Of a DNA stretch of 64,000 bases, positions 43,430-53,255 are shown one piece after another. Source of the DNA: Thermovibrio ammonificans HB-1 (GTDB taxonomy: Bacteria; Aquificota; Aquificia; Desulfurobacteriales; Desulfurobacteriaceae); the NCBI RefSeq assembly GCF_000185805.1, contig NC_014926.1, positions 390,418 to 454,417 of the forward strand. Direction: 5' to 3'. The translations under genes and the position numbers were made by a program. Below the pieces are notes generated by a model. That model saw only the letters and a list, made by a program, of their open reading frames with translations. It had not been told where the DNA came from and did no database searches. Positions within the stretch are counted from its first letter, which is position 1, and each line of letters begins with the position of its first letter.

Positions 43430-43840
43430 CTAACTCTTCTTGGCCCTCTTCTGTCTGGCTGCAAGCCAGGCCTTTTTAGACTCTACGGCCTCTCTTTCTA
43501 CGCCGTTCCAGTCGGGGATTGTAGACTCTGTTGCTGGAGGTGCCGTCTCCTCTACTTGAGTAAGACACCCCTCTTTCGGGCAGGCCCTTACGCACTCGCC
43601 GCAGTAGATGCACAGGTAGGGGTTGTAGTGGAACTTTTTACTTCCGTCTTCGCTGTAAGTAAAGCGGATTGCTCCCGGCGGGCAAACAAGCTCGCACTTT
43701 GTGCAGAATATACACAGTTCCTCCTTGTATACAATCACCCCCCTGTAGTTGGGAGGTGGCGGCGAGAGCTCCTGGGGGTATTTAACCGTAACGGGTTTAC
43801 TGAAGAGGTTCTTTATGGTCTGAACTACCATTTTCCTCAA
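43430..43840 (-). CDS. echF: Ech-type hydrogenase ferredoxin subunit (2x[4Fe-4S])
   Basis: Polyferredoxin-like subunit relating to NuoI, thought to pass electrons between soluble ferredoxin and the small subunit. About 136 residues with two CX2CX2CX3CP motifs: CIFCTKCELVCP and CIYCGECVRACP. The C-terminal ~40 residues are charged and variable. I use TTG 43840, which overlaps the cytochrome stop (TTGA) and lies five bases after GGAGGTGG; ATG 43831 is the alternative. A longer upstream start inside the cytochrome gene is unlikely. Last gene of the hydrogenase operon. Confidence 0.85.
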   Translation of the reverse strand: MRKMVVQTIKNLFSKPVTVKYPQELSPPPPNYRGVIVYKEELCIFCTKCELVCPPGAIRFTYSEDGSKKFHYNPYLCIYCGECVRACPKEGCLTQVEETAPPATESTIPDWNGVEREAVESKKAWLAARQKRAKKS

Positions 43841-44223
43841 TTTCCACCTCCGAGTAGCTGGTTGTAGTAATTCGGCAGTGCTCCGGCTTTGATTCGCTCG
43901 TGGCACTTTACGCACTTCTTTATTACCCTGTGGGCCTTAGAAGTTCCCATGACTTTTTGGTAGTTGTGGCACTCAAAACAGTCCTCTCCGCAGCTCGACA
44001 GGTACTTGTCGGAGTGGCTCTTGTGGCACTTTTCACACTCCTTTATGGGAGCGTGGGCCTTGTCTTTGGGTATGTTAAAGTGGCACATGTAGCAGTTGCT
44101 TCCGCACGCAAGAGCGGGAGCTTCTAAAACCAAAGCCAACACAAAAGCTCCTGACAGGGCTCTACCTTGCAGTACACGAAAGGCACGGGTCAAAGCTGAT
44201 AACGGTTGCCGGAACGTCTGCAT
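43837..44223 (-). CDS. small tetraheme c-type cytochrome within the ech operon
   Basis: Up to 128 residues. An N-terminal signal-like segment (GAFVLALVLEAPALA) precedes CGS, possibly a lipobox. Four CXXCH haem sites follow: CYMCH, CEKCH, CFECH, CVKCH, with extra cysteines in CGSNC and CGEDC and several spare histidines as axial ligands. It should lie outside the cytoplasmic membrane. The ATG at 44223 overlaps echE by 62 bases but gives a proper basic N-region; a GTG at 44142 behind AGGAG is the alternative. A cytochrome between echE and echF is not part of the standard Ech operon. Confidence 0.82.
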   Translation of the reverse strand: MQTFRQPLSALTRAFRVLQGRALSGAFVLALVLEAPALACGSNCYMCHFNIPKDKAHAPIKECEKCHKSHSDKYLSSCGEDCFECHNYQKVMGTSKAHRVIKKCVKCHERIKAGALPNYYNQLLGGGN

Positions 44224-45247
44224 AGTCCATTCCTATGAACAGCTCTTTCATAACGGGTATGTTTGCAAAAGTGGGCACTCTAATTCTAAGTCTATCGAGA
44301 ACCATCTTCTTTGAAGCCTTTATGTAGTAGAAGAGCTCTCCCCTGGGAGCTTCCACCCTAACGAAGTATTCGCCCTCGGGCACGCCCTTAACGGGCACTT
44401 TTATCTCGCCCTCGGGCAGGCCCTCTAACGCGTTTTCTACCATTTCTATTGAATTTAGAACTTCTAAGGCCCTGAGGAGGTTCCTCTCGTAGATTGAGCC
44501 CCCTTCAAGGGTTATCAGTTTAAATCCTACCTCTTCAAAGGGGAGGTAGTTAAACTCCGCCCGTGCGTCCGTTGCCAGCCCTGCCGCCCTTGCCGGTGGG
44601 CCCACTACGTTCATCTCTGTGGCCATCTCCGGAGTTACAACCCCTATCCCCTTCCACCTGAGGGAAAGGGAGAAGTCGTTTTCGTAAACGTCTTTGAGCC
44701 ACAGGCAGTGCTCTTTCAGCTCTTTGAGCTTCCGCCTTATCTCAATTTCAACTTCCCTTGTGAGGTCTCTGTTTACCCCTCCGGGAGCTGCAAAGTCGAA
44801 CTGAACCCTGTTGCCGGTTAGTAGCTCCAGGATTTCCATAACAAGCTCTCTGTAGCGGAACGTCTGCATGAAGAGGTTCTCGTAGCCGGCAACCTCTGCA
44901 GTGTGGCCCATGGCGAGCAGGTGGGAGTGGATTCTGTCCAGCTCGCTTACTATGAGCCTGAGGTAAAGGGCCTTCTTGGGAACTTCAACTTTCATTAACC
45001 GCTCAACTGCTGTAACGTAGCCGAGAGTGTGGCTTATTGCACACAGGCCGCACACCCTTGCTACAACGTAACCCACCTGCAGGTACTTAAACTTTGTCAT
45101 GCAGGCCTTTTCAATGCCCCTGTGAACGTAGCCTACATCTACATCTACGTCTACAATCTTTTCGTTCTCGGTCTGGAAAACGAACCTTACCGGTTCCGGT
45201 AGGGCAACGTGTTGGCTACCGAAGGGAACGGTAATCCTTTTTCCCAT
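44162..45247 (-). CDS. echE: Ech-type group 4 [NiFe] hydrogenase large subunit
   Basis: Carries the NiFe site of the membrane hydrogenase. 361 residues from ATG 45247, one base after the echD stop (TAAGATG). Nickel ligands are intact as cysteine: RVCGLC (C66, C69) and DPCLSC (C355, C358). The protein ends three residues after the last ligand (TAR), with no cleavable C-terminal peptide, as in other Ech and CO-induced hydrogenases, so no maturation protease cut is needed. Related to NuoD. Confidence 0.92.
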   Translation of the reverse strand: MGKRITVPFGSQHVALPEPVRFVFQTENEKIVDVDVDVGYVHRGIEKACMTKFKYLQVGYVVARVCGLCAISHTLGYVTAVERLMKVEVPKKALYLRLIVSELDRIHSHLLAMGHTAEVAGYENLFMQTFRYRELVMEILELLTGNRVQFDFAAPGGVNRDLTREVEIEIRRKLKELKEHCLWLKDVYENDFSLSLRWKGIGVVTPEMATEMNVVGPPARAAGLATDARAEFNYLPFEEVGFKLITLEGGSIYERNLLRALEVLNSIEMVENALEGLPEGEIKVPVKGVPEGEYFVRVEAPRGELFYYIKASKKMVLDRLRIRVPTFANIPVMKELFIGMDYADVPATVISFDPCLSCTAR

Positions 45248-45248
45248 C

Positions 45249-45593
45249 TTAACCTCTCCTAAGGGGGGCTTTGGGGCTGTCGGGGTCGAGGAAGAGTCCG
45301 GTTTTGGCACCCTCCACCTTCAGCCCTAAAAGGTCTGCAAGCTCCCACTCTGCAATCCAGGCAGAGGGTACAAGGTAGGTAATCGTGGGAACCTCGTCTT
45401 CGTAGCCGGCCTCTGCCGTTACAACTTTAAAGGTCTCTTTTGAGCCGTAGGGCATGAAGAACCACTTTAGTTCAACTTTTCCGCCCAGGTCGGTGCCGTT
45501 TACCGTTATGAAGTGCCACTTTTTCGGGTCGTAGAACTCCTTTATCGCCCTTCTCACTTCTCTGAGGGGAACTTTAATCTCTTCTACCTGCAT
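45249..45593 (-). CDS. echD: Ech-type hydrogenase NuoC-like subunit
   Basis: 114-residue peripheral subunit related to the 30-kDa NuoC protein, which bridges large and small subunits. Recognisable segments: HFITVNGTDLG, ELKWFFMP and ITYLVPSAWIAEWELADLLGL, which parallels the NuoC 'P..ER..yDl.Gi' region. Length suits EchD. It overlaps echC by 20 bases and precedes echE by one base. Confidence 0.85.
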   Translation of the reverse strand: MQVEEIKVPLREVRRAIKEFYDPKKWHFITVNGTDLGGKVELKWFFMPYGSKETFKVVTAEAGYEDEVPTITYLVPSAWIAEWELADLLGLKVEGAKTGLFLDPDSPKAPLRRG

Positions 45594-46950: not shown

Positions 46951-48806
46951 ACCAGACCTCCTCCCAGAATCAGGGTAAGCACGAAGAGGGCGGTTGCAGC
47001 CGTTTCTATGAGGGGTTCAACTCTGCTGATGCAGAAGAAGTTGTAGGTTCCGATTGTGAGCTCTACCTTCTCTCCGCAGGTGTAGGGGTAAACCCTGTCC
47101 GTCCCTTCAAAGTGGACGAAGTAGGCAATTACCGGAACTACGAGCAGTAGAAGGAGGGCTCCGACTATCTGCCAGCCGTATAGCTCAGAAAGGGGCGTTT
47201 TAAGGGTTAACCCTTGGGCTGCAATTGCTGCGGGCTTACCGACCACGCTTGCAACAATCGGGTTCACAAACTCCTGGCTGAAGAGCGCTATTAGGAGTGA
47301 AGCAACCAAGGTGAAGAGAACGAGGGGAACGGTGGTCAGGAGGTATAGGGGCGGGAGTTTTTCGAGCTTGAACCTTATGAACTCGCCCCGTTTTCTCGTC
47401 ATTATGCCGATTACTTTGAAGTAGAGGAGGGTGAGTATTACGCCGCCGACCGCCATGAAGATTATTGAACCGACGTAGGCTCCGTGGGCGAGGAAGTTAG
47501 AGGCTTCCTCAAGGGCCAGCCACTTGGCAACGAATATCCCGAAGGGCACTATGGTCATGCTCATGAAGCCGATGGAAACGAACATAACGGTAATAGGGGC
47601 CTTTTCTACAAGGCGCCTGATGTCTTCGATTCTCTTTGCTTTAAAGAGTTTCTCCATAATGCCCGCCTCCATAAAGAGGAGGGCCTTTACCGCTCCGTGG
47701 AAGAGTATCAGCAGAACCGAGGCGAGAACCGCTATGGGGCTTCCCATACTCGCCGTGAGCATCATGAGCCCCAGCAGGGAGATTGTTGAGTAAGCGAGAA
47801 TCCGTTTAAAGTTGTCTTGGGTTAGGGCAAACATTCCCGCCGCAACGAAAACGAAGCCTGTTGTGATTATCAGGAGCTTCGCAAGAAGCGTCCCCTTAAT
47901 TACCGGAGAGAGCCTGAGGATTAGGTAGGGAGCTATCTTCACCATGGTTGCCGAGTGGAGAATGGCGCTCACCGGCGTTGGGGCAACCATGGCGCCGAGC
48001 AGCCACCGGTGGAAGGGCAGCTGTGCTCCTTTAACGAGTGCAGAGATTGCCAGAAATCCGAACGGAATCATAACCAAGGAGGCTCTGTTTAATTTCAGGA
48101 AGTCGGTAAAGTGGTAGAGGCCGTAGTACTTAACGGCGAACAGAATGCCCAGCAGGATTGCTATACCGCCCACCTGGTTCATCCACAGGGCCCTGAGGGC
48201 GTTTTCAACCGATACCCTGTCCCACCTGAACCTTATCAGTATGTAGGAAGCGAGAGTCGTTGTTTCGAAGAGGGCGAAGAACCACTCCAGGTTGTTTACC
48301 GTTACGGCCAGGTTCATAACCCCTAAGAACCACAGCAGGATTGCAACAAAGCGGTTCTCCCTCTCTAAGTTCTCCTGCTCCATGTACTTTGTGGCGTAAA
48401 TGCAGATAAGCGAGCCTACAGTTGCCACAAGGGCGTAAATGGCAACCGACAGTCTGTCTACGTATAGGTTGGCCGTTTCTGAGTGGGGCATAACGGTAAG
48501 TGCCCAGCTGAGCAGAAAGAGCTGAGCAACGGCCAGAACCGTTACCAGGAAGTTCCTGAACTTGAACCCCTGGTAGAGGAAGTAGGCCAGCAGGCCGTAG
48601 TCGTAGAGGGTGAATGCCAGCTCCAGCCAGCGGGGGGTGTGGATGAAGAGCGGAAGCTCGGAGTTCCAGAGCAGGAAGGTAAGGTAGGAGAGAACCGGCA
48701 GGGAGATGAGCGTTACCGCCTGCCTTACCCTGTGCCACGGAGAAACGAAAACGATTAATGCAAGGAGCCACGGAACGACAAACAGCGCGTAGACTACCTT
48801 CTCCAT
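46947..48806 (-). CDS. echA: Ech-type hydrogenase membrane subunit, NuoL/MrpA-like antiporter
   Basis: 619-residue, about 16-helix proton/sodium-translocating subunit. It has the antiporter core with Glu in the LEWFFALFETTTLASYILI region, Lys in LVKGAQLPFHRWLLGAMVAPTPVSA and HSATMVKIAPYL, and an extra C-terminal region with CGEKVELTIGTYNFF. These are the residues expected to drive ion pumping in NuoL, HyfB and EchA. It overlaps the cNMP-binding protein gene by 13 bases. The coupling ion is not determinable. Confidence 0.92.
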   Translation of the reverse strand: MEKVVYALFVVPWLLALIVFVSPWHRVRQAVTLISLPVLSYLTFLLWNSELPLFIHTPRWLELAFTLYDYGLLAYFLYQGFKFRNFLVTVLAVAQLFLLSWALTVMPHSETANLYVDRLSVAIYALVATVGSLICIYATKYMEQENLERENRFVAILLWFLGVMNLAVTVNNLEWFFALFETTTLASYILIRFRWDRVSVENALRALWMNQVGGIAILLGILFAVKYYGLYHFTDFLKLNRASLVMIPFGFLAISALVKGAQLPFHRWLLGAMVAPTPVSAILHSATMVKIAPYLILRLSPVIKGTLLAKLLIITTGFVFVAAGMFALTQDNFKRILAYSTISLLGLMMLTASMGSPIAVLASVLLILFHGAVKALLFMEAGIMEKLFKAKRIEDIRRLVEKAPITVMFVSIGFMSMTIVPFGIFVAKWLALEEASNFLAHGAYVGSIIFMAVGGVILTLLYFKVIGIMTRKRGEFIRFKLEKLPPLYLLTTVPLVLFTLVASLLIALFSQEFVNPIVASVVGKPAAIAAQGLTLKTPLSELYGWQIVGALLLLLVVPVIAYFVHFEGTDRVYPYTCGEKVELTIGTYNFFCISRVEPLIETAATALFVLTLILGGGLV

Positions 48807-49279
48807 CTGTTCCCTCCGCTTACTGAGAAGAAACCGCAGACTTGTGCAAATTTCCTGTCTTCGCTCTTGAGCCTGTCTGCAAGGAAGTTGAGAACCACTT
48901 CAAGGAGCTTCACCGCAAGTTTCGGGTTCTCGGCCTTTAGGGCCTCGTAGTCTTCCCTGCTCAGGTAGAGGGCCTCAACCTCCTCCTCTGCAACCGCCCT
49001 TAGGGAGTGGGGCGTTCCGAGGAAGAAGGCACACTCTTCCAAAGGGACTCCACCGTAAACGGCGGCAACTTTTGTCCACCTGCCGAAGTTGTCGCTTCTG
49101 AGCAGTGCCACTTTGCCCTTCGATATGAGGAAGAAACCCTTTGCCGGCTCAAACTCGTCGAACAGGAGCTCACCCTTTTTAAAGCGGACTTCCCGGAAGT
49201 GGCGGGCGAGAAGCTCCTTCTCCTCTTCTGAAAACTCCCTAAACAGCCTGCACTTCTCTACAAGCTCGGTAGATACCAT
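48794..49279 (-). CDS. stand-alone cyclic-nucleotide-binding-domain protein between two hydrogenases
   Basis: 161 residues: a Crp-type beta-roll (about 10-120: FSEEEKELLARHF, GELLFDEFEPAKGFFLISKGKVALL, GVPLEECAFFLGTPHSLRAVAEEEVEALYLSR) followed by a C-helix, then a short tail. There is no winged-helix DNA-binding domain, so it is not a normal Crp/FNR regulator. The phosphate-binding Arg of true cAMP binders is not clearly present. ATG 49279 shares its A with the hydA stop (TGATG). Position between the group 3b and Ech genes suggests it senses a ligand or modulates one of the enzymes. Confidence 0.8.
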   Translation of the reverse strand: MVSTELVEKCRLFREFSEEEKELLARHFREVRFKKGELLFDEFEPAKGFFLISKGKVALLRSDNFGRWTKVAAVYGGVPLEECAFFLGTPHSLRAVAEEEVEALYLSREDYEALKAENPKLAVKLLEVVLNFLADRLKSEDRKFAQVCGFFSVSGGNRWRR

Positions 49280-50583
49280 CACACCCTCACAACCTTTACC
49301 GTTTCAAACTGACCACCGAACTGGTGGACTGCACACGCAATTCAGGGGTCGTAGGCCCTTATGAGCATCTCTGCCCGTTTCTTAAGCTGGGAGTCGGGCA
49401 GGTATGAGAACTTCTCCGCAAGGGCTTTAAGGTCTTCCTCTATGCAGGCCTGAAGCTGGGCTGTGGGCGTCACTATGTTGGCTCCGATACAGTGGCCGGA
49501 AGGGGAAAACCTGTAGTGGTGGTAGAGAACTCCCCTCGGAGCCTCTTTCACCCCGTAGCCGCCGAACTCTCCGGGTTCCAACTCGGCTTTCGGCTCAAAG
49601 GGAAGGAGCTCTATGAGCTTCTCTGCATACTTAACGCCCCTGTGGGCGAGCTCCACCATCTCAACGGCCCTTGCAAGGTTTGCAAGGAGGGGGTTTTGGG
49701 AGGGGAACCTGTTTTTCAGCCTCGACAGAACCTCTTTCGTCTCCTCCGTGTAGAAATCCTCTCCCCGGTTGACCCGCGCGAGGGGTCCTATCCTGAAAGC
49801 CTTTCCGTTTACGGTTGAGCGCTTTGCCGTGCTGTAGGGGGATACTTCTTCCTTGATAAAGTGCTCAAACTCCTGCTTCGTGAACTTTAAGCCGTTTGAT
49901 ACGGCGACCCTGTCTGAAGGTTCGCTTGGAACCGGGTTCTCGAGGGATACCTCGAGCTCAACCGGACTTTCAAGCTCGAAGTACTCGAGGGAGTCAAACA
50001 GGAATGCGGTGGCCTCAAGCTCCGGCAGAATCTCGGTGAGCCAGTCTATGACCAGCTCAAGCTCCTCCTTCTCTGGGGCCCTTGTGAATCCTCCGGCAAC
50101 TATTGCCTCTCCGTGAACCGTTTTGCCCCCGAGCAGTTTCATAATCCTGTTGCCCACCTCTTTTATCTTGAAGCCCCTTCTGACAACGTTGGGGTAGTCT
50201 TTCGCCATCTCAACGGCCGAGCCGTATCCCATGTAGTCGGGGAGGGCCAGGAAGTAGAGGTGTAGGGCGTGGCTCTCTAAGAACTCCCCCACGATGAGGA
50301 GTCTTCTCATAAGCTCAACGGCTTCGGGAACTTCCGTTTTAAATGCGTCCTCTATTGCCTTTGCCGCAGCAAGTCTGTGGGAAACGTAGCAGATGCCGCA
50401 GATGCGGGAAACGATTTTCGGTATCTCGCTGAAGAGCCGCTCTCTCGTTATGAACTCAAAGAAACGGGGACCTTCGGTAAAGGAGAGCTTTATCTCCTTT
50501 ACCTGGCTGCCCTCCAGCTTCAGCTCAACGGCTCCGTGTCCCTCTACTCTCGTCAGGTGGTTTACTTTAAGCTCCCTTTCCAT
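49279..50583 (-). CDS. hydA: group 3b [NiFeSe] hydrogenase large subunit with UGA-encoded selenocysteine
   Basis: Catalytic subunit of the cytosolic NAD(P)-linked sulfhydrogenase type. N-terminal Ni ligands: RICGIC (C62, C65). At residue 414 the codon is UGA (49342-49344), exactly where the first Cys of DPCxxCxxH belongs. The frame then reads IACAVH and ends 14 residues later at UGA 49279-49281, giving 434 residues with C417 as the other ligand. A hairpin at the SECIS distance follows the UGA. The conserved downstream motif argues for readthrough with Sec, not truncation. The post-His tail is the usual length for protease processing. Confidence 0.88.
49313..49344 (-). promoter_or_regulatory. 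candidate bacterial SECIS element for hydA UGA
   Basis: After the UGA (49344-49342) and 14 bases, CCACC (49327-49323) pairs with GGTGG (49317-49313) around a five-base loop AGTTC. Stem position and a G among the first two loop bases agree with described bacterial SECIS features. The stem is short (5 bp), so folding of a longer region should be checked. Confidence 0.55.
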
Positions 50584-51340
50584 CTGCGTAGCTCCCCAGC
50601 TTTTCTGTGTTGAACGTTTTGCCCCTGAAAACCTTCAGGAACTTCAGGGCGTCGCTCCTTTTGAGGCCCCTTTCTGTAAGGAGCTTCACCATCTCGTCGA
50701 AGTTGGGAAAGTCACAGTTCCCCCTGCACCCTTGGCACCCTATTCCCGAGGCCGTGCACGGTGCGCCGCAGCCCGCAAAGGAAACGGGCCCTTGGCAGGG
50801 AATCCCTTTAAGGGTTAAACACTCGGTTTCCGAGAGCTTGCACTCGTGGCACACCGGAATCTTCGGGAAGAACGGCTTTACCCCGTTAAGGAGGGAAGCC
50901 ACCGTATAGATGAACTGCCTCTTGTCTAAGGGGCAGCCGGGAAGCTCGTAATCCACCCGGACAACCTCCGAAACGGGGCGGGGCTTAAACACCTTTAAGA
51001 AGAGCTTCTCCCCGCCGTAAACGGTCTCCAACATCTCCTTGAGGCTCGCCTCGTCGTTCCTCTGGGCTTGAACGCCTCCGTAACAGGCACAAGAACCTAC
51101 TGCAACAACAACTTTTGACTTTTTCCGAACCTCTTTTACCTTCTCCTCGTCGAGCTCTGTAGAAACGGAGCCCTCAACCAGTGCAAGGTCGAGCTCGGGA
51201 ACTGTGTGGTCGTCCTTTGCCAGCGGGAAGAAGGCGAGCTCTGCCCTTTGGAGTATCTTGCTCAGAGCCTCTTCACAGTTGAGAATCTCACACTGGCAGC
51301 CGGAGCACCCCGTTAAACCGACGATGCCTATCCTTACCAT
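50567..51340 (-). CDS. hydD: group 3b hydrogenase small (delta) subunit
   Basis: 257-residue electron-transfer subunit of the sulfhydrogenase-type enzyme with three [4Fe-4S] clusters. Proximal cluster: GLTGCSGCQC near residues 8-17, GSCACYGG near 83-90 and LPGCPLD. Others lie in CHECKLSETEC and GCGAPCTASGIGCQGCRGNC. It starts right after the hydG stop and overlaps hydA by 17 bases. Confidence 0.93.
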   Translation of the reverse strand: MVRIGIVGLTGCSGCQCEILNCEEALSKILQRAELAFFPLAKDDHTVPELDLALVEGSVSTELDEEKVKEVRKKSKVVVAVGSCACYGGVQAQRNDEASLKEMLETVYGGEKLFLKVFKPRPVSEVVRVDYELPGCPLDKRQFIYTVASLLNGVKPFFPKIPVCHECKLSETECLTLKGIPCQGPVSFAGCGAPCTASGIGCQGCRGNCDFPNFDEMVKLLTERGLKRSDALKFLKVFRGKTFNTEKLGSYADGKGA

Positions 51341-52219
51341 CTAAATCATCTCCGGAAGGTTTTTGGTGTCCCACAGGGGGAATATCGGGCCGTCTACACA
51401 GGCGAACTTGTAGCCTATCTGGCAGTGGCCGCACTTACCTATGCCGCACTCCATCTTCCTTTCGAGGGAAACGAAAATCTGGCTTTCGGGATACCCGTTC
51501 TTTAAGAGCTCCTTGCCTATGAAGCGGTAGGCTACCGGCGGGCCGCAGACTGCAACGTAGGTATCTGCGGGGTCGAGCTCTACCTGAGGAATGAGGGCCG
51601 TTAGAACCCCTTCAACGTCGGCCCACTCCCTATCCTCTGCCGTTTCGCACCTGTCGAGGACGAACAGGCACTTAACGTCGCTGCGCTCTCTGAGCCTTTT
51701 GAGCTCCTCTTTGTAGAGGACCATTTGGTAGTTTCTCGTTCCGTAGAGGATGTATATCTCCTTGAAACGGTGACGCCTGTCGAGGGCGAACCAGATGAGG
51801 GAGCGTAAGGGGGCTATACCCAAACCTCCCGCTATTATCAGGAGGTTGTGGCCCTCCATAATCTCCACCGGGAAGCCGTTCCCGTAGGGGCCTCTTATCG
51901 CCGCAAGGTCTCCCGGTTTCATCCTGTGGAGAACCTCTGTTTTCCTTCCCACTTTCCTCACCGTGAGCTCTACGGTGCCTCGCCTGGTAGGTGAGGAGCA
52001 GATGGAAATCGGAATCTCGCCCGCTTTGGGAACCGTCAGCATTACAAACTGGCCGGGAAGGTGGTGCCATTTGGCGTTCAGCTCTTCGTTCAAGAAGGTG
52101 AAAGAAAACTTCTTGTGGTCGGGTGCAAGCTCCTCTACGTCGGTTATTACAACTTTGTGGGGAAGGTAGGGGTCTACCGGTAGGGGTTTATTCAGTAACT
52201 TCTCTAAGCTCTTTTTCAT
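51341..52219 (-). CDS. hydG: group 3b hydrogenase FAD/NAD(P)-binding (gamma) subunit
   Basis: 292-residue ferredoxin-reductase-like subunit that exchanges electrons between NAD(P)H and the hydrogenase. FAD site near residues 75-80 (ICSSPTRRG), NAD(P) site IIAGGLGIAPLRSLIWFAL, and a C-terminal [2Fe-2S] motif CGIGKCGHCQ...C as in dihydroorotate dehydrogenase PyrK and HydG of Pyrococcus. It overlaps hydB by 32 bases. The gene name follows the hydBGDA sulfhydrogenase scheme, not the radical SAM HydG of [FeFe] enzymes. Confidence 0.92.
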   Translation of the reverse strand: MKKSLEKLLNKPLPVDPYLPHKVVITDVEELAPDHKKFSFTFLNEELNAKWHHLPGQFVMLTVPKAGEIPISICSSPTRRGTVELTVRKVGRKTEVLHRMKPGDLAAIRGPYGNGFPVEIMEGHNLLIIAGGLGIAPLRSLIWFALDRRHRFKEIYILYGTRNYQMVLYKEELKRLRERSDVKCLFVLDRCETAEDREWADVEGVLTALIPQVELDPADTYVAVCGPPVAYRFIGKELLKNGYPESQIFVSLERKMECGIGKCGHCQIGYKFACVDGPIFPLWDTKNLPEMI

Positions 52220-53255
52220 TGCACCCTCTCAGCCGCTTTATTGTCTCCACCATGCTGATTGATGCCGGGCACTCGGCACTACACCTTCCGCAGCCTACAC
52301 AGCCGAGCATCTCAACCTGATAGGGGTATCCCACCAGCTTGTGGTAGTAGCGGTGTTTGAACCTGTCGGCCCTGGTTGCCTTAAAGTAGTGGCCTCCGGC
52401 AACGAGCGAGTAGTAGGGGTACTGGCAGGAGGTTGTGAACTCTATCCGCTTAACTTCGGTTCCCGCTATGTTGGGAACGTCTACACTCGTGTAGCAGAAA
52501 CAGGTTGGACACACGTTTGTGCAGGTTCCGCAGCCCAGGCACCTCTTTGCCTCTTCCTGCCAGACTTCCGAGTCGTACTCCAGCTCTACAACGTGGGAGA
52601 TTCTCTCAAGGTCGGGCAGTTGTTCGGGCTTAAAGAGGCTTTTCTTCTTTAAGGTTGTTGCCTTGTAGGCGTTTAGGTCTTCCTTCTCTATGTCTCTAAA
52701 GAGAGACCTCTGGCTGTAAACGATTTCGTCCCCCTTGGGGCTTCCTATGGAGACGAAGTAGTCGGCCCCTATGTCTGTGAGGAAGAGGTCCCAGCTTGCC
52801 CCTTCCGGGAAGGCCGTGGCGGTGGCCAGGCAGAAACAGAACTCGTCGGGCACGCAGGAGACCCCTATCAGAACCGTTCTCTTCCTTACTTCAAGGTAGC
52901 GGGGGTCGGGGTTCTCCTTCAGGTAGATGGAGTCCAGTATGGAGATTCCGTGGAGGTCGCAGGAGTGGATTCCGAAGATTACCTGGTTCTCCGCCTTGAA
53001 GTTGGTTTTAAAGCTTAAATCCTCAACGCTGTAGGAGAAACGCTCTCTTCTGTAGGGAACGAGGAATTTCTTCGGGGGCAGAATTGTTCTGGTGTAGTTG
53101 AGCTCTACCTCTTCGGGCTTTTCCACGTGGGTGAATACGAACTTCTCCCCTTTTCTGACGGGGGCGATGAGCTTTCCCCACTTTTTGAGCCCGCTTATGA
53201 AGCTGTGTAGGTTTGCCTTGGGCAGCACTTTTGCCCGCTCTATGTGGAACTCCAC
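52188..53255 (-). CDS. hydB: group 3b hydrogenase iron-sulfur (beta) subunit
   Basis: 355-residue subunit with two C-terminal [4Fe-4S] motifs, CLGCGTCTNVCP and CVGCGRCSAECP, separated by a Cys/Tyr-rich segment. The N-terminal ~230 residues form the HydB-type domain with conserved FGIHSCDLHG and GVSCVPDEFCFC. GTG start behind GGAGG. First gene of the hydrogenase operon, about 31 bases from the predicted transcription start. Some relatives reduce polysulfide; whether this one does is unknown. Confidence 0.92.
   Translation of the reverse strand: MEFHIERAKVLPKANLHSFISGLKKWGKLIAPVRKGEKFVFTHVEKPEEVELNYTRTILPPKKFLVPYRRERFSYSVEDLSFKTNFKAENQVIFGIHSCDLHGISILDSIYLKENPDPRYLEVRKRTVLIGVSCVPDEFCFCLATATAFPEGASWDLFLTDIGADYFVSIGSPKGDEIVYSQRSLFRDIEKEDLNAYKATTLKKKSLFKPEQLPDLERISHVVELEYDSEVWQEEAKRCLGCGTCTNVCPTCFCYTSVDVPNIAGTEVKRIEFTTSCQYPYYSLVAGGHYFKATRADRFKHRYYHKLVGYPYQVEMLGCVGCGRCSAECPASISMVETIKRLRGCNEKELREVTE

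Follow-up and report, generated by a model that had tools for sequence, protein, structure and literature searches.

The hydrogenase gene hydA of Thermovibrio ammonificans carries an in-frame UGA codon at the point where the C-terminal nickel-binding motif DPCxxCxxH has its first cysteine, which raises the question of whether this codon terminates the protein or is read as selenocysteine (Sec). The gene was analysed within a 64-kb stretch of the genome, here called the window, and positions refer to the window unless stated otherwise. A first-pass annotation had proposed a probable selenocysteine at the Ni-binding Cys of HydA, and this proposal is supported by the Sec machinery of the organism, by the recurrence of the UGA among its relatives and by a hairpin that fits the bacterial SECIS (bSECIS) model and is under synonymous constraint. 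The features concerned are as follows.

48794–49282, minus strand: gene with a cyclic-nucleotide-binding domain, downstream of hydA; its start overlaps the hydA stop beyond the UGA
49282–50583, minus strand: hydA, catalytic large subunit of a group 3b hydrogenase (434 residues including Sec414; ends at the stop 49279–49281; PF00374, profiles and structure match)
49342–49344, minus strand: UGA codon, very probably read as Sec414; it stands where the C-terminal Ni-binding motif DPCxxCxxH has its first Cys and aligns with that Cys of P. furiosus SHI
49282–49323, minus strand: codons of the C-terminal extension, 14 residues after His420, QFGGQFETVKVVRV (from the sequence; an extension is present in 18/18 family sequences)
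49313–49327, minus strand: predicted bacterial SECIS apical hairpin CCACC-AGUUC-GGUGG (19 nt between UGA and loop; the second loop base is G, with U after it)
50567–51340, minus strand: hydD, small (delta) subunit (NF040836 HydD, 205 bits; PF01058)
51341–52219, minus strand: hydG/shyC, flavin- and NAD(P)-binding gamma subunit (ShyC 268 bits, HydG 261 bits; FAD- and NAD-binding domains)
52188–53255, minus strand: hydB/shyB, iron-sulfur beta subunit (ShyB 314 bits, HydB 305 bits; Fer4_22)

An in-frame UGA at the nickel-binding site of HydA

The plus strand reads TCA at 49342–49344, so that the hydA frame has UGA there. On the minus strand this frame runs from the ATG at 50583 to the UGA at 49344–49342, and when the codon is translated as U, the C-terminus of HydA reads MLIRAYDP-U-IACAVHQFGGQFETVKVVRV-stop. 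The second UGA (TGA at 49281–49279) is an ordinary stop and overlaps the start of the downstream gene. The first-pass annotation had placed the UGA directly after RAYDP, at the site of the group 3b motif Cys, and had read IACAVH and 14 further residues beyond it up to the next gene; the position is exact and the translation bears out the continuation. In the alignment, RAYDPUIACAVH of HydA lies against RAYDPCISCSVH of the alpha subunit of sulfhydrogenase I (SHI) of P. furiosus, with the UGA opposite the first Cys of the motif DPCISCSVH. HydA contains both Ni-binding motifs, RICGIC at residues 60–65 and DPUxxCxxH at residues 412–420, and its RVEGH motif has a Glu14 that never varies in the family alignment. 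Against PF00374, the protein scores 113 bits.

The 14-residue tail is presumably a maturation peptide, cut off by a hydrogenase maturation protease. One HycI-type protease was found in the genome (genome position 1104629–1105003), beside the Hyn group 1 genes. Since the large subunits FrhA and Ech are tail-less, Hyn and HydA may share this lone protease. The Ech group 4 large subunit (44162–45310, minus strand) ends in DPCLSCTAR-stop, with neither an extension nor the terminal His, and the group 3a FrhA of Thermovibrio and its relatives ends right at DPCIVC(A/S)xH-stop, without a C-terminal maturation peptide. According to the published genome analysis, F420 biosynthesis is nevertheless absent from T. 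ammonificans (PMC5441870).

HydA is a group 3b hydrogenase

The assignment of HydA to group 3b, already made in the first-pass annotation, holds by profile scores, alignment and structure match. HydA scored 321 bits with the ShyA profile and 302 bits with HydA, compared to 162 bits with VhuA and 118 bits with FrhA; these values lie below the strict NCBIfam equivalog cut-offs (700 and 880), as is expected for a distant branch. For all four subunits, the best or near-best scores were obtained with sulfhydrogenase profiles, and hydB, hydG (flavin/NAD(P)) and hydD share an operon with hydA. A structure model of HydA, built from eight family sequences, has a mean pLDDT of 78.5, with low values over much of the N-terminal 50 and the C-terminal 17 residues. 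Its top match among solved structures was the alpha subunit of P. furiosus SHI (TM-score 0.85), while Desulfovibrio [NiFeSe] hydrogenase gave about 0.68. By profiles, operon and structure, HydA is thus a group 3b hydrogenase, with putative NADP(H) activity. A displaced selenium hydrogenase of group 1 or 3c was considered as well and is ruled out by the profile scores and the match to the P. furiosus SHI structure.

In the published genome analysis, the cluster is described as an Ech group 4 hydrogenase (Theam_0476–0482) and a group 3b hydABCD (Theam_0484–0487), and representatives of the group 3 Hyd enzyme are reported in the T. ammonificans proteome (PMC5441870). The protein encoded at 48794–49282 (minus strand), between hydA and the Ech cluster, has no further Pfam domain, and a similar frame occurs in most relatives. 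At the end of the Ech cluster, 43837–44223 (minus strand) encodes a small protein with four CxxCH haem-binding motifs and no Pfam match; a multihaem cytochrome adjoining an Ech operon seems unusual.

Conservation of the UGA and of the codons beyond it

Alignment of homologues at the UGA position, a check suggested along with the first-pass annotation, showed TGA at the identical hydA codon in 14 Desulfurobacteriaceae genomes from six genera, and TGT or TGC in four genomes of genus g7 of the same family. The 14 UGA genomes are independent assemblies and comprise both isolates and metagenome bins. A sequencing or assembly error that turned TGC or TGT into TGA at 49342–49344, named at the outset as a possible refutation, is therefore itself refuted by this recurrence.

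Beyond the UGA, the residues IACAVHQFGG are invariant in the 14 UGA genomes, and all nucleotide differences within codons +1 to +10 fall on the third position, which indicates that this stretch is translated. The codon is never UAA or UAG in any of these genomes. In most genomes the post-UGA stop lies at most about 20 nt from the start of the next gene, and this closeness fits translation of full-length HydA. These observations bear on the reading that the UGA is a true stop, with hydA either decaying or giving a 413-residue protein that works without its C-terminal ligands. The standard code does make UGA a stop, and the shortened product would keep the N-terminal ligand pair. However, invariant residues with third-position-only changes past the codon, a well conserved protein upstream of it and the lack of any UAA or UAG substitution make a true stop exceedingly improbable.

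A conserved hairpin downstream of the UGA

The first-pass annotation had also noted a 5-bp hairpin starting 14 nt after the UGA. It was located as CCACC (49327–49323), loop AGUUC (49322–49318) and GGUGG (49317–49313). The hairpin CCACC-AGUUY-GGUGG is nearly letter-identical across the UGA genomes and is present in 14/14 of them, compared to 0/4 of the Cys genomes. The published bSECIS model requires an apical loop of 3–9 nt, an upper stem of 4–16 bp, a G within loop positions 1–2, a distance of 16–37 nt between UGA and loop, and a minimum free energy of at most −7.5 kcal/mol (PMC13188914). A bSECIS prediction had been suggested at the outset, and the hydA hairpin fits this model in 14/14 UGA genomes: the loop has 5 nt and the stem 5 bp (at least one pair more in the relatives), and the loop AGUUY lies 19 nt from the UGA in all of them. 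The segment from the UGA to +42 folds with −10.3 to −15.7 kcal/mol, within the limit of −7.5 kcal/mol, which the bare 15-nt hairpin (−6.7 kcal/mol) passes only together with its flanks.

The stem has a probability of 0.967–1.0 when folding starts at the UGA. When six bases 5′ of the UGA are added, an alternative structure has the lowest energy for the T. ammonificans sequence (−18.8 kcal/mol, z −0.96), and this single-sequence fold is not significantly stable, so that the case is built on the comparative evidence. Furthermore, 5.8% of the TGA triplets in the window are followed by one such bSECIS-like hairpin. The structure alone is unconvincing, and its weight comes from its conservation and its absence in the Cys homologues. 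As the stem is invariant, compensatory changes or covariation were not seen among the 14 UGA genomes.

The codons that make up the hairpin (+5 to +10, GTC CAC CAG TTY GGT GGW) have a mean codon entropy of 0.22 bits, compared to 1.18 bits upstream, where the baseline was taken from 159 amino-acid-invariant degenerate columns, only 1.3% of which use a single codon. None of 65 upstream six-column windows was as low (lowest value 0.72), and none of 200,000 amino-acid-matched resamplings was as conserved. Within these six codons, nothing varies but the last base of the loop and the base just outside the stem. Judged by these comparisons, the hairpin is a predicted SECIS element with frozen synonymous sites.

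Selenocysteine machinery and SelD

The T. ammonificans genome (1,759,526 bases, two contigs) contains a tRNA-Sec with the anticodon UCA (80.7 bits), and profile searches found SelB (423 bits, cut-off 242), SelA (530 bits) and SelD (365 bits); the UxxK motif of SelD is likewise encoded with an in-frame UGA. A search for selA, selB, selD and the selC tRNA had been proposed together with the Sec assignment, for which a lack of selB or selC would have been fatal; all four are present. A tRNA for selenocysteine is also counted in the genome paper (PMC5441870). Among 22 Desulfurobacteriaceae genomes, selA was found in all 22, selB above the cut-off in 20, selD above the cut-off in 21 and tRNA-Sec in 20, and the genomes missing parts of the machinery are multi-contig assemblies.

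The selD genes of the same genomes have a hairpin with the loop GGUC at a distance from the UGA similar to that in hydA, and these two unrelated genes share the loop core [A/G]GU. The in-frame UGA of selD (RASGUGAKLSPVG) occurs in every Desulfurobacteriaceae genome with a full-length gene (21 genomes), including those of genus g7 with its Cys-type HydA. Genus g7 retains the Sec machinery because its SelD is itself Sec-encoded. Among the genes examined, SelD is the only other selenoprotein found in T. ammonificans; the best match to formate dehydrogenase, checked as a further candidate, has no in-frame UGA.

The UGA might also be decoded as another residue, such as Cys or Trp, by a near-cognate tRNA or a different, selenium-free recoding system. 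Four close relatives have Cys at this position, and a Cys enzyme would therefore work. This reading is nevertheless highly improbable, given that tRNA-Sec (UCA), SelA, SelB and a Sec-containing SelD are all encoded, that the hairpin has the spacing of a SECIS and is missing from precisely those genomes that have a Cys codon, and that the second UGA, at the end of hydA, acts as a normal stop.

Evolutionary history of the Sec codon

A search of the whole phylum Aquificota found no in-frame TGA in group 3b homologues outside the Desulfurobacteriaceae. The nearest non-family homologues, from family f5, have TGC, and the other Aquificota homologues read have Cys. HydA of genus g7 belongs to the same protein family as that of T. 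ammonificans (53–55% identity over the full length), but differs in its TGT/TGC codon, its CISCSVH motif and the absence of the SECIS hairpin. Likewise, HydA of family f5 belongs to this protein family and differs in having a Cys codon and the CISCSVH motif.

In the HydA tree, 14 Sec rows and 14 Cys rows are set apart by one change (support 74/93), and the outer sequences are all Cys. The tree favours the direction from Cys to Sec in the Sec clade, with an ambiguous root inside the Desulfurobacteriaceae/f5 group. Contrary to the given taxonomy, genus g7 clusters with family f5 (95/94) and not with its own family, which suggests either gene exchange or a problem of taxonomy or rooting. A possible alternative history is that Sec was lost in g7, or that g7 acquired its gene from an f5-like donor.

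Proposed mechanism and benefit of Sec414

Combined, these results lead us to regard hydA as the gene of a genuine, family-wide [NiFeSe] group 3b large subunit with Sec414 at the UGA, read via SECIS and SelB (probability about 0.96). The UGA, the hairpin with its conservation, the Sec machinery and the operon are observed directly, whereas Sec insertion, Ni ligation, tail processing and the benefit are inferred. SelB bound to the downstream hairpin would bring Sec-tRNA-Sec to the UGA at 49342–49344, and Sec414, standing where the C-terminal CxxC otherwise has its first Cys, would coordinate the active-site nickel as a terminal ligand. The ribosome would go on to add Cys417, the second metal ligand of the motif, as well as His420 and the 14-residue tail, which would be clipped once the metal is inserted. 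Together with HydB, HydG and HydD, HydA would then assemble into an NAD(P)(H)-linked hydrogenase of the cytoplasm. If selenium is lacking, translation would stop at the UGA and yield a 413-residue product; since this product lacks two active-site ligands, the enzyme yield should follow the selenium supply.

The benefit of Sec could be resistance to over-oxidation and/or weaker inhibition by H2. In [NiFeSe] enzymes, Sec is thought to shield the nickel from over-oxidation (PMC13188914). When Sec takes the position of Cys546 in E. coli Hyd-2, the Cys that is replaced in natural [NiFeSe] enzymes, more H2 is produced while H2 is present (PMC11212049). Oxygen recovery, expected in the first-pass annotation, is one of two expectations drawn from the literature, the other being weaker product inhibition with increased H2 production (PMC11212049); at vents, either benefit would be plausible. 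Alternatively, Sec may be real but neutral, a one-time Cys-to-Sec swap kept since SECIS and codon together are hard to reverse. One genus of the family, g7, manages with Cys, as a neutral swap would allow. Against it stand the clade-wide retention across six genera with a frozen SECIS, and the finding that Se at the same Cys alters catalysis in engineered E. coli Hyd-2 and in natural [NiFeSe] enzymes (PMC11212049), and we consider it unlikely. As to the origin of the Sec form, we moderately favour a joint reading in which selenium entered group 3b a single time, at the base of the Desulfurobacteriaceae or inside the family, independently of the selenium hydrogenases of group 1 and groups 3c/3a, and in which HydA may be a main Sec client of T. 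ammonificans, tying NAD(P)H-coupled H2 metabolism at vents to the selenium supply.

Novelty and significance

Searches of the open-access literature yielded no mention of a group 3b hydrogenase with Sec. A 2026 review describes [NiFeSe] hydrogenases as exclusive to sulfate reducers and methanogens, and names the F420-reducing and methylviologen-reducing types but not group 3b (PMC13188914). Earlier surveys placed hydrogenase alpha subunits under FrhA (PMC5029168; as COG3259 in PMC9312934), and single genes from Desulfurobacteriaceae may be among those counts with their 3b identity unnoticed. What is new is the selenium form of subgroup 3b, Sec hydrogenases of other groups being already known. 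In the part of the T. ammonificans genome analysis considered here, HydA is called unique to the Desulfurobacteriaceae, with no significant homologue outside, and the in-frame UGA of hydA is not mentioned (PMC5441870). The UGA may help to account for this reported lack of homologues, although divergence alone could suffice.

With a family-wide Sec group 3b enzyme from thermophilic vent bacteria that depend on hydrogen, the [NiFeSe] class gains one more hydrogenase group and one more phylum. Since Cys sister enzymes occur naturally within the family, native orthologues can serve to test how the S-to-Se exchange affects catalysis. Databases that end HydA at the UGA would miss its catalytic C-terminus.

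Comparison with known hydrogenases

A scan of 84,980 species genomes for the motif R-x-[YF]-DP-UGA-I-x-C-xx-H, limited to this variant, returned at least 120 stretches. Among the matches listed, 98 were near full-length, of which 73 were group 3c-like, 18 group 1-like and 7 group 3b, and all 7 of the latter belong to the Desulfurobacteriaceae. Within the scanned motif, and among the matches listed, Sec group 3b enzymes beyond this family thus appear rare. The first-pass annotation had expected a bacterial Sec group 3b enzyme to be uncommon. For bacterial group 3 overall, Sec forms are not rare, as Sec group 3c is common in the Desulfobacterota; it is for subgroup 3b that the Sec form is new. 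In phage records, hydrogenase matches were weak and partial only. Group 1-like hydrogenases with a UGA at the same Ni-binding position were also seen in Actinomycetota/Coriobacteriia, Dehalococcoidia, Ammonifex and Desulfofervidaceae bins, and in the loci tested the sequence past the UGA folds stably; their occurrence in these lineages conflicts with the restriction to sulfate reducers and methanogens stated in the review (PMC13188914).

Among the closest known systems is the group 3b sulfhydrogenase I of P. furiosus (HydBGDA), which has the same four-subunit operon type and the same NAD(P)-type gamma subunit as T. ammonificans. Its large subunit shares the fold of HydA (TM-score 0.85, 36–38% identity) and the C-terminal DPxIxCxVH, but has Cys (DPCISCSVH) where HydA has UGA/Sec. 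The group 1 [NiFeSe] enzymes HysAB of Desulfovibrio and Desulfomicrobium resemble HydA in carrying Sec in the same motif, DPUxxCxxH, with bacterial UGA/SECIS coding. However, they belong to a different group, share only 20–22% identity with HydA, are longer and are periplasmic, whereas HydA is predicted to be cytoplasmic and NAD(P)-linked. The Sec-containing group 3c MvhA/VhuA-like enzymes (Desulfobacterota; methanogen VhuU) are group 3 enzymes with Sec at the same position as in HydA. Unlike the HydA operon, the known group 3c cases are tied to heterodisulfide reductase and not to NAD(P), and their profile preference is reversed, the best profile for group 3c being VhuA with 432 bits versus 185 for ShyA, compared to 321 bits for ShyA versus 162 for VhuA in T. 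ammonificans HydA.
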